From NCBI RefSeq assembly GCF_000419585.1, contig NZ_ATTH01000001.1, positions 62,001 to 126,000 of the forward strand: DNA of 64,000 bases. Direction: 5' to 3'. This stretch comes from Salisaeta longa DSM 21114 (GTDB lineage Bacteria > Bacteroidota > Rhodothermia > Rhodothermales > Salinibacteraceae). Positions 29,640 through 35,129 of this stretch are shown here, piece by piece. Position 1 is the first letter of the stretch, and the number at the start of each line of letters is the position of its first letter. The notes under the pieces were generated by a model. That model worked only from the letters and a program-made list of their open reading frames with translations, made no database searches and was not told the DNA's origin. Made by a program: the position numbers and the translations under genes.

Positions 29640-29960
29640 TGGAGTATGTGAATTTTTAGAACCTTGACGAATGAGAGTAATTCTTACGACAACGCTGTCT
29701 GTGAACTGTAAACGAGAAAGGCGCGTAACAAGCCCCGTACTGACGGGCCAGAGGGGAAGTGGTTGATAGTAGATGCACTAGACAAGATATTCGCTTGTGT
29801 GTAAGCAATCTGTTTAGTACCCTTTGATCACGGTCGCACAACGCTCCACGTTCTCTGCGCACCATTTGCCCCTAACGAACACGTGCCTTATATTGCTTTC
29901 CGGATGGCACGCAGCAAGGACGAAATGGCCAGCGTTATTTTACAACGATTCGAAGACATC
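29640..29960. other. Leader region of the T9SS operon
   Basis: No gene is supported in these 321 bases, which are visibly richer in A+T than the DNA upstream. The candidate promoter at 29865-29895 is the only signal recognised. Confidence 0.5.
29865..29895 (+). promoter_or_regulatory. Candidate Bacteroidota-type promoter of the T9SS operon
   Basis: TTTG at 29865-29868 is followed, after 20 bases, by TATATTG at 29889-29895. This is close to the Bacteroidota consensus TTTG-N19-TAnnTTTG. Transcription would begin near 29902, giving a leader of about 59 bases before the ATG at 29961. Confidence 0.35.
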
Positions 29961-30707
29961 ATGCCAAGCCGAGCGCTTTTCCGTATAGGGTTGCTAAGTC
30001 TCCTTTTGCTTGCAGGGACCGGCCTCTGTGAAGCCACTGCCCAGAACCAGTGGGGCGGCAGCTGGGACAATCCGCGCCAGGGCAATGAGCCGCAGCGTGG
30101 AAATCAGCCGCAGCAGCAAGGCGATAGCCAAGCGGCGCAGCAACAAGCTGAGGGCGGCTTTATTGACGGCCTAACCATTGGGGCCGGCTTGGGGGCGTAT
30201 CAAGGAGACATTAGCCGAAATCCGAACAACAACTTGCTGAAGTATGTGGGCACTGCCAAGCTCACAGCACGCGTCGGCGTCGATCACCGAATGGGAACGT
30301 TTGAACAGTATGGTGTTGGCGCAGACCTTGTATATACCCGCATTGGAGGCATTACCACAGGGCTTGCCGAATTCAACAGCAACTTGCTGGCACTTGACTT
30401 CTATGGCGACTACGAGCTCCCATATGTCATGCAAGGGCTCTTTCGTGTATTTCTTGGCGGTGGGCCCATGATGGTGATTTCGCCTACGTACAGCAATTTT
30501 CCTGAGAACAATCCATCGTTCAAGAAGCTGGGTACACGCGTCGTTGGTTCTTTTAAAGTGGGCGTTACCATCCTAGACCGCATCCGGGTCGGCGCCCGCG
30601 TGTCAACGTCCGATTACATTGATGGCTACGAAGGGTTCTACAGTGGAGGCATTCCAGATACTGTGGGCTTCGTGACATTTAATTATCGATTTGACCTCAG
30701 TAGATAA
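29961..30707 (+). CDS. Small outer-membrane beta-barrel protein at the head of the gldKLMN operon
   Basis: The 248-residue product has a signal peptide ending at EATAQ, a Gln/Gly/Asn-rich linker (NPRQGNEPQRGNQPQQQ, residues about 36-60), then a barrel-like domain of about 180 residues beginning GLTIGAGLGAYQGDISRNP and ending FVTFNYRFDLSR, with a C-terminal aromatic strand. It stops 8 bases before the longest gldK frame, so it belongs to the operon. In P. gingivalis the barrel gene porP precedes porK, but I do not see the PorP/SprF signature here, and the protein is shorter than PorP. Upstream in-frame ATGs exist; 29961 was chosen because it gives a clean signal peptide. Confidence 0.72.
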   Translation: MPSRALFRIGLLSLLLLAGTGLCEATAQNQWGGSWDNPRQGNEPQRGNQPQQQGDSQAAQQQAEGGFIDGLTIGAGLGAYQGDISRNPNNNLLKYVGTAKLTARVGVDHRMGTFEQYGVGADLVYTRIGGITTGLAEFNSNLLALDFYGDYELPYVMQGLFRVFLGGGPMMVISPTYSNFPENNPSFKKLGTRVVGSFKVGVTILDRIRVGARVSTSDYIDGYEGFYSGGIPDTVGFVTFNYRFDLSR

Positions 30708-30802
30708 TTCGGTCCATGAAAGGCTCGTGTTACAGCCGCCGAGCAGTAACGTATCATACTATGAGTAGCATCGCACGTATGCCGCATATAACCCTACGCT
30801 CA

Positions 30803-32524
30803 ATGTCAATTGCTATGTGGACGAAGCGTCTCGTCATTACACTGATGCTCTGCTGGATGTGCAGTGGAGCTGCCGAAGCATATTCCCAACGGCTCTTCCT
30901 GAATGGTGGAGCTCACATTGCCAGTGGCTCGATTCAGAGCGATTTGGCGGGCACCAATCCAGCAGTGTCGGGGGGCTTGCAGTTTCAGTACACCGACAAC
31001 CTGCGGCTGCGCACGGCGGTGACGTACCAGAATCTGCTGTCGCTCGATGCCATCCTGCAGATTCATTTCTTGGGGGATGACAATAAGATCAACCCCTATC
31101 TTTTCACGGGATACGGCTATTACATCTCGGACGCGGGCGAGCAAGCGCTGCTTCCAGTAGGAGCTGGAATGGAATATGGATTGACCGACAACCTAGCGCT
31201 GAATGTAGAGCTGAGCGGGCGCTGGGGTATCAATCGCTTGCGAAACGGGCAGCGTGTGAGCCTTGATATCATAACAGGCATCATGCCAAGCATCGGTTTC
31301 TCGTACAAACTCCAGCGCATCGAGCGCACCAAGCCGGGTATGACGCCCTTGGAAGACGAGGAAATGGCCAATCAAGGCCCGACGAATCAGCGATACGAAG
31401 GTGGAACCTTTGGGAGGCGTCAGGGCGAAGGGCTTGAAAATCCGTTCATGGACCCAACAGAATACGCAGGTCGCACAGCTGCCCCAACGTTCGAGCGGCC
31501 TAACCTAGATTCCCTCCGTTCTGCTGATCCACTGATTGTGCCACGTAATGGCCCGGCGCCGTATGAAGACCCGGGTATGCCTCCCATCTCGGGCCAAGTG
31601 CAAGTCTCGGATAATGGCGACATGGTGCGGCTTCCTTCGGGTACCTTCATTATGGGGCTGACGGACGAGGATCCATACAACTTGCAGAACGCCGGCCGGA
31701 AGCGCGTTACGGTTAGCTCATTTTATATTGACCGCGTAGAGGTAACGAATCAGCAGTATCGCGAATTCCTTCAGAGCCTTAGCGGGTCGAAGCGTGAGGA
31801 GATGCTTCCTGACTCAACGGCTTTTCAGTCCAGTAGAGCTAACTGGAAGACGTACTTCTATGGCTCAACTTACAATGACTACCCTGTAGTGGCCGTTACG
31901 TGGAACGAACTCCAAGCCTATTGTAAATGGGATGGCAAACGGTTGCCTACAGAGGCTGAATGGGAATACGCTGCGCGTGCTGGTCGGGTTGGTGGTGTTT
32001 ATCCCTGGGCCGGGTTCTCACCCCAGGATGCAGTGGGTCGATACCTGGCTAACTTCAGCCCTGCGCGTCAGGGGCAGGCTGCAGATGGCTATGCCTTTAC
32101 GGCACCCGTCGCATCTTATCCCCCGAGCCGCTGGGGGCTCTTTGACATGGCTGGGAATGTCGCAGAATGGGTGCGCGACGCCTTCGCCCCGACCTACTCG
32201 CAACTGTCGAGCCTCGACCCGCTCTATACCGACCCTGAGGCCAAGCAGCACGTGGTCCGTGGCGGCTCTTGGGCCTCTGACGCCTTCTCAATTGGTGTTG
32301 GCTTCCGTACGGCCCAGAATGCGTCGAGTGCTTCTACGAAGATTGGTGGTCGCTGCGCTGCCGATATCGGACAGATAGAAGGCAACATTCAGCGGTTCAA
32401 TAATACACCGCAGCCGCCCGCAGGTGGACAGCCGCCCGCAGGTGGACAGCCGCCCGCAGGTGGACAACCGCCCGCAGGTGGACAGCCGCCCGCAGGTGGA
32501 CAACCGCCCGCAGGTGGCCGCTAA
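30803..32524 (+). CDS. gldK: GldK/PorK-like T9SS ring protein with an N-terminal beta-barrel and C-terminal PPAGGQ repeats
   Basis: About 573 residues in four parts. A signal peptide ends near AAEAYSQ and has no lipobox. Residues about 28-168 form amphipathic strands resembling a small outer-membrane barrel (GGLQFQYTDNLRLRTAVTY and YLFTGYGYYI). A linker of about 100 residues follows. Residues about 274-535 are a formylglycine-generating-enzyme-like sulfatase-modifying domain: RLPSGTFIMG, VEVTNQQYREF, RLPTEAEWEYAARAG, WGLFDMAGNVAEWV and VVRGGSW. The tail has six PPAGGQ units (538-573). GldK/PorK is normally a lipoprotein that forms the periplasmic ring with GldN/PorN. Several ATGs lie upstream (to 30716); 30803 gives the best signal peptide. 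Confidence 0.85.
   Translation: MSIAMWTKRLVITLMLCWMCSGAAEAYSQRLFLNGGAHIASGSIQSDLAGTNPAVSGGLQFQYTDNLRLRTAVTYQNLLSLDAILQIHFLGDDNKINPYLFTGYGYYISDAGEQALLPVGAGMEYGLTDNLALNVELSGRWGINRLRNGQRVSLDIITGIMPSIGFSYKLQRIERTKPGMTPLEDEEMANQGPTNQRYEGGTFGRRQGEGLENPFMDPTEYAGRTAAPTFERPNLDSLRSADPLIVPRNGPAPYEDPGMPPISGQVQVSDNGDMVRLPSGTFIMGLTDEDPYNLQNAGRKRVTVSSFYIDRVEVTNQQYREFLQSLSGSKREEMLPDSTAFQSSRANWKTYFYGSTYNDYPVVAVTWNELQAYCKWDGKRLPTEAEWEYAARAGRVGGVYPWAGFSPQDAVGRYLANFSPARQGQAADGYAFTAPVASYPPSRWGLFDMAGNVAEWVRDAFAPTYSQLSSLDPLYTDPEAKQHVVRGGSWASDAFSIGVGFRTAQNASSASTKIGGRCAADIGQIEGNIQRFNNTPQPPAGGQPPAGGQPPAGGQPPAGGQPPAGGQPPAGGR
32414..32521 (+). repeat. Six tandem 18-bp units encoding PPAGGQ at the gldK 3' end
   Basis: Units begin at 32414, 32432, 32450, 32468, 32486 and 32504. 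The first five differ only in the last base (CAG or CAA); the last ends in CGC and runs into the TAA stop. The array is coding and in frame, so copy-number change would alter tail length by six residues per unit without a frameshift. Confidence 0.95.
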
Positions 32525-32614: not shown

Positions 32615-33232
32615 ATGACCAACGCTAGAAAGCGAGAAATTCTCGATCGTACGACAAAGGTGCTTAGCTTTGTCATTGGCATCTTTGGTGCCTTGGCGAT
32701 CATTGGGGTGCTGTATAAGATTTTGAAGTGGCCCAATTACACCACATTTATCACCATTGGATTCATGGGCGAGGCCGGTGCGTTCGTCATCATGGGGGTA
32801 CTTGAGCTTGCTCAAGCCTTTGTGATGGAGCCTGGCGCGGAAGGAGGCGGCGGAGGCTCCGAAGCTTCCTTGAGTGGTACGACACCCGTGCGCGCTTCGG
32901 CCCGCAAGATGATCGAAAAGAAAGTTAATGACGACTTGAGCGTCATGATGGGAGCCCTCGGCAAAGAGATTAAGCAGTTTGGCGGGGAGATTCATGAGAT
33001 GGTTGGCGAAATGAAGCGCGCCCGTGTTGCGGTGCAAGACATGCGCTCGAAACTGAGCGAAGTAGCTAGCGGAGAACTTGCCAACAGTGCAGAGAAGCTC
33101 GGCAAAGGCATGAGTACGCTCGGCACGGAAATGGAAGGTGCAGGCTCCACTGTTCAGACGATGCGCAACGACCTGGACACCATGCTTTCTCGCTTCCGCA
33201 AGTTTAACAACCCCAATGGGGCCTCTGAGTAA
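32615..33232 (+). CDS. gldL: T9SS inner-membrane motor protein GldL/PorL
   Basis: A 205-residue protein with two transmembrane helices (about 16-34 and 46-67) joined by YKILKWPNY, then a long cytoplasmic coiled-coil-like tail. The second helix has Glu53 in GFMGEAGAF, which corresponds to the conserved membrane-embedded glutamate of GldL needed to use the proton-motive force; Lys35 is also conserved in position. Five GldL and two GldM subunits form the rotary motor in better-studied systems. Length is near normal (about 215). The tail from residue 95 contains heptad-like repeats (IEKKVNDDLSVMMGALGKEI). It follows gldK by 90 bases and precedes gldM by 48. Confidence 0.9.
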   Translation: MTNARKREILDRTTKVLSFVIGIFGALAIIGVLYKILKWPNYTTFITIGFMGEAGAFVIMGVLELAQAFVMEPGAEGGGGGSEASLSGTTPVRASARKMIEKKVNDDLSVMMGALGKEIKQFGGEIHEMVGEMKRARVAVQDMRSKLSEVASGELANSAEKLGKGMSTLGTEMEGAGSTVQTMRNDLDTMLSRFRKFNNPNGASE

Positions 33233-33280: not shown

Positions 33281-34351
33281 ATGGCTGGAGGATCAGAACG
33301 AATAAAGGAGCTGCGGTACCAGGTGATGCTGGCGTTGTATTTGCCCATCCTGTTGTATGCCGCAACGACCATAGACATCGAGAATGCGGATCAAACCGTT
33401 GCGGTGCGTAACGTTAGCCCAGTGGTTTACGGGACGCAGAACGTTGTGCTTGGCCAAGAATACTCAGCGTACGCTTACCTTGCGGCAGTTCCGCAAGAAG
33501 GTACAACGAAACAAGGGGCCAACATTGAGCTGAAGGTTAATCAGGATGGAATGAAAGTTCTTGACAACCGACAGCTCGTTATGGATACTGGAGCGCTTCT
33601 TGAAAAGGGCCAGGATACCCGAACGGTCGAGTATAAAGGGACAATTGAATATAGCACCCTGGAAGGTGGGGTGAAATCACTCCCTTACAATGGGTCGTTC
33701 ACGGTTCGTCGGCCTGAGCTCGTTGCAACCAGTGTTGCAGCTCAGTCGCTCTATCGCCAGACGCTCAACCAAATCCGCATTGACGTTCCGGGGCTTGAGA
33801 ATCAACCGCTTCGCCTTGAGTACGGAAATACATCGGTTGACGGACGCACCATTCAACTCAGTCCTGCTGGAGATAACGTGACTGTCAGTGCTTACTTACA
33901 GCGGCAAGGGCAAGACGATGTATACCTGGGCGACAAAAGCTTCGGCGTGATTGATCCGCCGCGCCCGGAGATTCGTGTGCTTGATGCGCAGGGCAATCCA
34001 CTCATCAGTGGGCAAAGCTTTCCGGCCGCTCGGCCGCTCATCAACGTTAATGTTGTGGCCGATCAGGAGTTTGCGAAGAGTTACCCGCAAGACGCACGTT
34101 ACCGTGTCGGACAGGTGCAGGTATCGATTCGTCGCGGGCTTGGCGTGAGTGAACGCATTGGTACGTTTAACGTACCATCCGATGGAAGAATCAACTTCCG
34201 GACGTTTTCTGAGTATCGCAGTGCTGACCCAGAGCGCGAAGACCAGATTATTCTTGAACTTCAGGACGTTGTTCGTATCAACCACGCAGGGCAGGCCATT
34301 CCTGTCGATCTGAGTGATGCAAGCCGCTCCTATAGCTTCATCTTGTCCTGA
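33281..34351 (+). CDS. gldM: T9SS motor protein GldM/PorM, short form apparently lacking domain D1
   Basis: This 356-residue protein starts MAGG, as many GldM proteins do, and has one transmembrane helix (about 14-31). Canonical GldM is about 515 residues, with four periplasmic domains D1-D4. Here the sequence goes quickly from the helix to NVSPVVYGTQNVVLGQEYSA, which resembles the start of D2. FTVRRPELVATSVA then LYRQTLNQIRIDVPGL matches the D2-D3 junction. The mostly helical D1 domain therefore appears missing. GldM links the GldL motor to the GldK-GldN ring. AGAAGG at 33273-33278 is a Shine-Dalgarno for the ATG. Confidence 0.85.
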   Translation: MAGGSERIKELRYQVMLALYLPILLYAATTIDIENADQTVAVRNVSPVVYGTQNVVLGQEYSAYAYLAAVPQEGTTKQGANIELKVNQDGMKVLDNRQLVMDTGALLEKGQDTRTVEYKGTIEYSTLEGGVKSLPYNGSFTVRRPELVATSVAAQSLYRQTLNQIRIDVPGLENQPLRLEYGNTSVDGRTIQLSPAGDNVTVSAYLQRQGQDDVYLGDKSFGVIDPPRPEIRVLDAQGNPLISGQSFPAARPLINVNVVADQEFAKSYPQDARYRVGQVQVSIRRGLGVSERIGTFNVPSDGRINFRTFSEYRSADPEREDQIILELQDVVRINHAGQAIPVDLSDASRSYSFILS

Positions 34352-34472: not shown

Positions 34473-35129
34473 ATGATAAACAAATTTGCAAAGATAGGCA
34501 GCTTCCTCGCTGCACTGTTGCTCCTCGTTGGTGTGTTCTCCACCGCGCAGGCCCAAATGTGGCAGAGCTCAGCGAAGGTCATTGTCCCCGTTGCTGATAT
34601 CGAAGATGGGTATCCCACGCGTGCTCTTTTGGACACGCTGATTAGTCGTTTTCAATCAGTTGATAGTCTGAAAGTATACCGCACAAGTGATAAAGAAGAA
34701 AAAGTATCAATCAGCGAGCTTGAGAGCGAGTTGATTGATCAGGGGTTTGCATTAAGCAGCGCCAATAGTGTCCAAATTGGGTATAAGTTCAGGTACAATC
34801 AGGGGAATTTTTCGGAAACGATCACGGACTTGTACTTCGTGTATCGTCCGCAGGGTACCGGACAGGAGGACATTCCCATCATGTACCTTGACGCCCAGCG
34901 TCCGATTGTGAAGTCGGTCCTGGAAAACAGTGGAACGCAAAATCAGAGCAATCCTTTTCTGACGAATATTTTTGCGGACCAGCTTGCCTTTGCCCGCATT
35001 GCTCGTACGAAAGAAGATGCAACGGTTGTACAAGTTGCGGGGCGGGACTTGCGCTCTGAAGACGTGAGTGCACGTGAGAAGCGACAGCTCGTGCAGCGTA
35101 TTCTGGATATGGCTTACGGGCGCATGTAA
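34473..35129 (+). CDS. gldN: GldN/PorN-like T9SS protein, short form
   Basis: A 218-residue secreted protein with a signal peptide (cleavage near AQAQ). It is last in the operon, where gldN always lies, and its mature sequence keeps the general order of the family: an N-terminal alpha/beta region, a strand pair (YKFRYNQGNFSETITDLYFVY), an acidic-aromatic middle (MYLDAQRPIVK) and a helical C-terminus rich in charged residues (SAREKRQLVQRILDMAYGRM). Canonical GldN/PorN is about 300 residues, so about one quarter is missing. The assignment rests more on synteny than on sequence identity. In known systems it forms the periplasmic ring with GldK. A strong terminator follows. Confidence 0.75.
   Translation: MINKFAKIGSFLAALLLLVGVFSTAQAQMWQSSAKVIVPVADIEDGYPTRALLDTLISRFQSVDSLKVYRTSDKEEKVSISELESELIDQGFALSSANSVQIGYKFRYNQGNFSETITDLYFVYRPQGTGQEDIPIMYLDAQRPIVKSVLENSGTQNQSNPFLTNIFADQLAFARIARTKEDATVVQVAGRDLRSEDVSAREKRQLVQRILDMAYGRM

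Follow-up and report, generated by a model that had tools for sequence, protein, structure and literature searches.

A GldM without the helical D1 domain, encoded next to GldL and a barrel-fused GldK in Salisaeta longa and conserved in its class

The window analyzed here (the whole stretch of 64,000 nucleotides from Salisaeta longa DSM 21114) contains a gldM gene for a protein of 356 residues that lacks the D1 domain. Most likely (probability roughly 0.8), its membrane helix leads almost straight into domains D2-D4, without a D1 bundle in between, and the protein works in a GldL-driven motor that reaches the GldK ring. In the periplasm, D1 is the domain of GldM that comes first, located just above the motor, and it is included in the solved GldM and PorM structures. 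The D1-less protein represents a genuine and conserved version of a known machine rather than a broken gene; it is a new variant of GldM and not a new kind of system. The gene and its domains were placed as follows:

33281..34351, + strand: gldM, 356 aa, D1-less (TIGR03517, AlphaFold2 fold, 17 aligned sequences)
33290..33367, + strand: GldM transmembrane helix, residues 4-29 (AlphaFold2 helix, with low pLDDT here; R12, Y20, and P22 invariant)
33404..33709, + strand: GldM D2-like domain, ~residues 42-143 (weak GldM_2nd match, TIGR03517; borders approximate)
33710..33958, + strand: GldM D3-like domain, ~residues 144-226 (weak GldM_3rd match; fold match to PorM 315-516, Z 9.6)
33959..34348, + strand: GldM D4-like domain, ~residues 227-356 (TIGR03517 match up to 512/524; fold match)

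Positions 227-512 (of 524) of the NCBIfam model for GldM, TIGR03517, matched residues 37-338 of the protein (E 6.6e-15), and no match was obtained for model positions 1-226. In the crystal structure of Flavobacterium johnsoniae GldM, D1 comprises residues 32-232, D2 233-320, D3 321-405, and D4 406-513 (PMC5790014), so that the onset of the match coincides with the D1/D2 border. A first-pass annotation, made from the sequence alone, had described a GldM of 356 residues apparently without D1, with D2-like sequence beginning soon after the membrane helix. Both statements held: the helix covers residues 4-29, D2-like sequence begins at ~42, and residues 32-130, whose placement in D1 would have spoken against this description, align with D2.

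The TIGR03517 score (54.9 bits) was far under the curated cut-off of 180 bits. As this cut-off was set on D1-containing proteins, we filed the protein as a D1-less variant and not as a standard member. Pfam matches to GldM_2nd (residues 39-142) and GldM_3rd (154-212) were both weak and under their curated cut-offs, and Pfam gave no first-domain match. Searching the PDB with the single sequence yielded no match, and with the family profile only weak PorM matches (E 0.023). Because the Pfam and TIGR03517 scores lie under the cut-offs, the assignment of the 356-aa protein as a genuine GldM is based on sequence, gene order, and fold combined.

In the AlphaFold2 model (mean pLDDT 83.7), a single helix (4-29) is followed by a weakly predicted link to ~46 and by strands from 47 onwards; past the helix there are beta domains only, and no D1 helical bundle. 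The best match among solved structures was GldM 6ey4 (Z 10.5 over 246 residues, model residues 34-356), and further best matches were 7cmg and 6ey6 (PorM), the latter, covering D3-D4 of PorM, with Z 9.6 and an rmsd of 4.9. The first four ranks in a Foldseek search were all PorM. Values of Z near 10 are modest and other multi-domain beta proteins score 8-9, so that the fold is no proof of identity by itself; in combination with sequence and gene order it is.

The length alone (356 versus ~515 residues) could suggest a truncated or misassembled gldM that lost D1 by a frameshift or sequencing error. We consider the probability of this negligible: 16 relatives (41-55% identity) have the same length and a conserved N-terminus, frames of 342-368 aa occur in the order, the 358-aa stop-to-stop frame has its stop two codons 5′ of the ATG start, and the 48 nt between the gldL stop and the gldM start are too short to hide a domain of ~200 residues. 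A frameshift or truncation, which the first-pass annotation had named as a finding that would overturn it, was ruled out by the upstream stop and by the length conserved in relatives, which is kept in dozens of genomes.

D1 might instead be supplied in trans by another gene, which would leave the assembled motor no shorter; such a D1 might be too diverged for the family model. Nevertheless, a profile search of the whole genome for a second GldM or a stray D1 found none at E up to 10, the sole TIGR03517 match in the genome was this GldM (model positions 227-512), and the operons read contain no extra gene among K, L, M, and the gene in the gldN position. A D1 in trans is thus very improbable.

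The hydrophobic N-terminal stretch is kept in all relatives, with R12, Y20, and P22 invariant in 17 aligned sequences. An R-x7-Y/F spacing in the membrane helix was present in 18/18 GldM compared, both long and short. Judged from sequence, the arginines of the long and short helices may be equivalent one-to-one; as the alignment program favors a helix register shifted by three residues between the two forms, this match is only a proposal.

End to end, the 17 GldM of the same order align over 340-356 aa. Across the class (its name was taken from the record titles of relatives), a profile of the order sequences detected GldM in 32 of 244 genomes, and in 16/162 among the good genomes. One group of families had frames of 341-368 residues, a second group frames of 382-403. 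All intact class GldM that were detected are D1-less; in one genome gldM was cut by a contig end, and no class GldM has room for D1. In the relatives, the TIGR03517 match started at model positions 224-230, as for the window protein. Named relatives with a D1-less GldM include Salinivenus sp., Longimonas halophila, and Rhodothermales/Rhodothermia MAGs. One relative encodes an additional, second GldM-like protein (266 aa; L020 37-837, G010:C62), which matches D3-D4 only and has a lipoprotein-like signal at its start.

A survey of GldM lengths, suggested in the first-pass annotation, was carried out at class and phylum scale and gave frames of 341-403 aa within the class and 506-605 aa outside. 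The phylum part covered 394 genomes: a single continuous match in frames of 342-400 aa was seen in all seven class genomes (7/7), whereas all genomes outside it (83/83) had their main match in a frame of 506-605 aa. Many non-class GldM gave two separate matches, one for the membrane helix (profile 1-31) and one for D2 (starting at ~35). A search of the open literature found no description of a D1-less GldM, of Balneola GldM, or of GldK fusions.

In the GldM tree, all long forms grouped together (support 1.000), and hence a single change in D1 suffices. Beyond the D1-less forms of the class and the long forms elsewhere in the phylum, no further GldM was detected. For this reason there is no outgroup, and the tree does not fix the polarity of the change, which may have been a loss in the class or a gain outside it. 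The occurrence of the D1-less form suggests that D1 is not essential to the assembly of such motors.

The partner protein of the motor is encoded directly upstream of gldM:

32615..33232, + strand: gldL, 205 aa (Pfam GldL_N; E53 = E49 of F. johnsoniae)

GldL passed the cut-off of Pfam GldL_N (PF22827; 26.9 bits, cut-off 24, E 5.6e-6). Its E53, invariant in 16 sequences, occupies the position of the TMH2 glutamate E49 of F. johnsoniae, which is proton-carrying and essential for secretion (PMC8986121). The order gldK-L-M-(N) is kept in the window and in the relatives' operons that were read, and GldL and GldM occur in nearly the same genomes of the class. In some relatives, GldL is 317-354 aa long (L003 283-1344, L016 74-1024), its cytoplasmic coiled coil being lengthened by internal repeats.

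Retention of this glutamate also bears on the reading that this GldM homologue does another job, e.g. as an anchor or as an adaptor for cargo, instead of forming the rotor of a GldL motor. Most class genomes encode SprA but have no detectable GldLM, and the module is therefore maybe not the general energiser of their secretion. Against another job stands the membrane helix with its invariant R, Y, and P, encoded beside a GldL with a conserved proton-carrying glutamate. We regard such a role as unlikely and retain the rotor of a GldL-driven motor as the preferred reading.

Upstream of gldL, the ring protein GldK carries an additional domain:

30716..32524, + strand: gldK, 602 aa, barrel plus FGE-like ring domain (TIGR03525, AlphaFold2 model, fold matches)
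30887..31309, + strand: GldK 8-stranded barrel, residues 58-198 (block pLDDT mostly 80-93; PorG profile match 98.1%, not specific)
31310..31615, + strand: GldK linker, predicted disordered, ~residues 199-300 (pLDDT <50 at 202-300)
31616..32380, + strand: GldK FGE-like ring domain, ~residues 301-555 (Pfam FGE-sulfatase, E 4.2e-59; PorK 9p6h)

GldK matched TIGR03525 with E 1e-62 and 212.8 bits, under the cut-off of 350 bits. Its FGE-like domain superposed on PorK 9p6h with Z 19.1 and an rmsd of 3.4 over 203 residues, and its barrel matched barrels of the OmpA/OprF/NspA type (Z ~15-16). The layout of barrel, linker, and FGE-like domain was found in nearly all relatives read and in both groups of the class (the window and loci L060, L062, L065-L068, L070, L072-L074, L076, L077, and L079-L084), with linkers of 40-139 residues in the barrel-bearing relatives. 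A lipobox pattern was not found in 17/18 GldK sequences of the class. GldK from ten other Bacteroidota have a lipoprotein-like start and no barrel; the lipobox pattern occurred in 8/10 of these, and the other two, with SVSC or MQGC, are lipobox-like by eye. Two tandem GldK-type genes are present in Longimonas halophila (L063 812-2548 and 2666-3841), one barrel-bearing (578 aa) and one barrel-less (391 aa). The C-terminal end of the window GldK (~32416-32520) is a tandem PPAGGQ repeat, and other Pro/Gln/Gly-rich tails occur in some relatives.

Directly 5′ of gldK there is a further barrel gene, which is found at this place in most relatives read:

29883..30707, + strand: stand-alone PorG-like outer-membrane barrel, 5′ of gldK (PorG profile match 96.3%)

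The fused barrel of GldK resembled PorG (NF052316, E 0.13; hhalign 98.1%), a similarity that is not specific, as the stand-alone upstream barrel, taken as a control, reached 96.3%; the barrel of second-group GldK gave 3% only. PorG is thus one possible source of the fused barrel.

A conserved gene also follows gldM:

34473..35129, + strand: protein in the gldN position, 218 aa, signal-like N-terminus (conserved in 16 sequences)

The first-pass annotation had called it a short GldN. We could not uphold this name: there was no GldN family match, and neither profile-profile comparison nor PDB searches detected homology to GldN. By hhalign, the gldN-position proteins of the class scored 0.3% (order of the window protein) and 2.6% against GldN, whereas those of the two class groups were distantly linked to each other with 82%. 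The label GldN is a positional name only for this gene. The compact T9SS core that the short GldN and the missing D1 had been taken to indicate is supported in part only: the absence of D1 stands, but GldK is not compact, being enlarged by the fused barrel and long linker.

The genome encodes SprA and 36 T9SS cargo tails, so the secretion system is present. Within the class, SprA was detected in 235/238 genomes (~99%; 161/162 among the good genomes) and GldL in 32/238, which leaves GldL/GldM detectable in ~13% of the class. Cargo tails were found in 10/10 tested class genomes without GldLM; in these ten, there was no convincing GldL_N match, and for GldK there were at most weak matches of the FGE type. 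These genomes either have a motor too diverged to detect or work without one. Possibly, GldLM is optional for type IX secretion in the class, most members exporting via SprA without it, and the motor, where present, has a three-domain form, either older or streamlined, that is coupled to a barrel-bearing ring. In that case D1 would be a later addition outside the class and not part of the basic motor. We consider this reading doubtful.

Under the preferred reading, a D1-less GldM driven by GldL, two GldM helices would sit inside a GldL pentamer, by analogy with F. johnsoniae, and proton flow via GldL would turn or rock the helix pair. A rod of three rather than four domains would carry the motion via D4 to the GldK-based ring. 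The D4 domain of PorM touches PorN, a ring component, in Porphyromonas gingivalis (PMC12421860); as D4 is present here, force generated at GldL can still be transmitted. From anatomy, the absence of D1 implies a shorter shaft, and the transfer of torque might be altered, as the first-pass annotation had expected. The reported length of the four-domain rod is 180 A (PMC5790014), and if the domains contribute equally, the rod here may be estimated at ~135 A, perhaps a quarter less. The GldK barrel with its linker of 40-140 residues, and not a short lipid-anchored tail, might hold the ring at the outer membrane. A ring on such long linkers could hang lower and offset the shorter reach of GldM; this idea of ring height relies on the predicted disorder of the linker and on structures that come from other lineages.

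A published UniProt survey found GldM length to be rather uniform (PMC9389320), and the class-wide absence of D1 shows what a minimal GldM may be. A D1-less GldLM also represents a smaller natural complex for structure work. As PorK and GldK were found in 2025 to form disulfide links with partners in the outer membrane, PorG among them (PMC12635249), the question of how the ring is held at the outer membrane has become sharper, and a barrel-fused GldK offers an independent view of this attachment. Furthermore, SprA and cargo without detectable GldLM in most of the class make the power source of type IX export directly testable.

Compared with GldM of F. johnsoniae and PorM of P. gingivalis (6ey4, 6ey5, 6ey6, 7cmg), the window protein has in common (i) the membrane helix together with D2, D3, and D4, and (ii) the K-L-M-(N) gene order with GldL as partner. 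It differs in the absence of the five-helix bundle of D1, and D1-less GldM of the class have 340-400 aa as against 506-605 aa in standard GldM/PorM. The ring protein shares the FGE-like domain with GldK/PorK (Z 19 to PorK), but unlike the known proteins the class GldK carries an outer-membrane barrel and a long linker in front and usually has no lipobox. As with PorG, a barrel is found beside the ring protein (profile similarity 98%, not specific). In the class it sits within the GldK chain, whereas PorG of P. gingivalis is a separate protein disulfide-linked to PorK (PMC12635249). Finally, as in the 5:2 motors MotAB, ExbBD, and TolQR, a pentamer around a dimeric axle would be expected here too, as inferred from GldLM (PMC9389320). 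The likeness to these motors is one of design: in contrast to MotB, the periplasmic part is a rod of GldM domains D2-D4 and not a peptidoglycan-binding domain.
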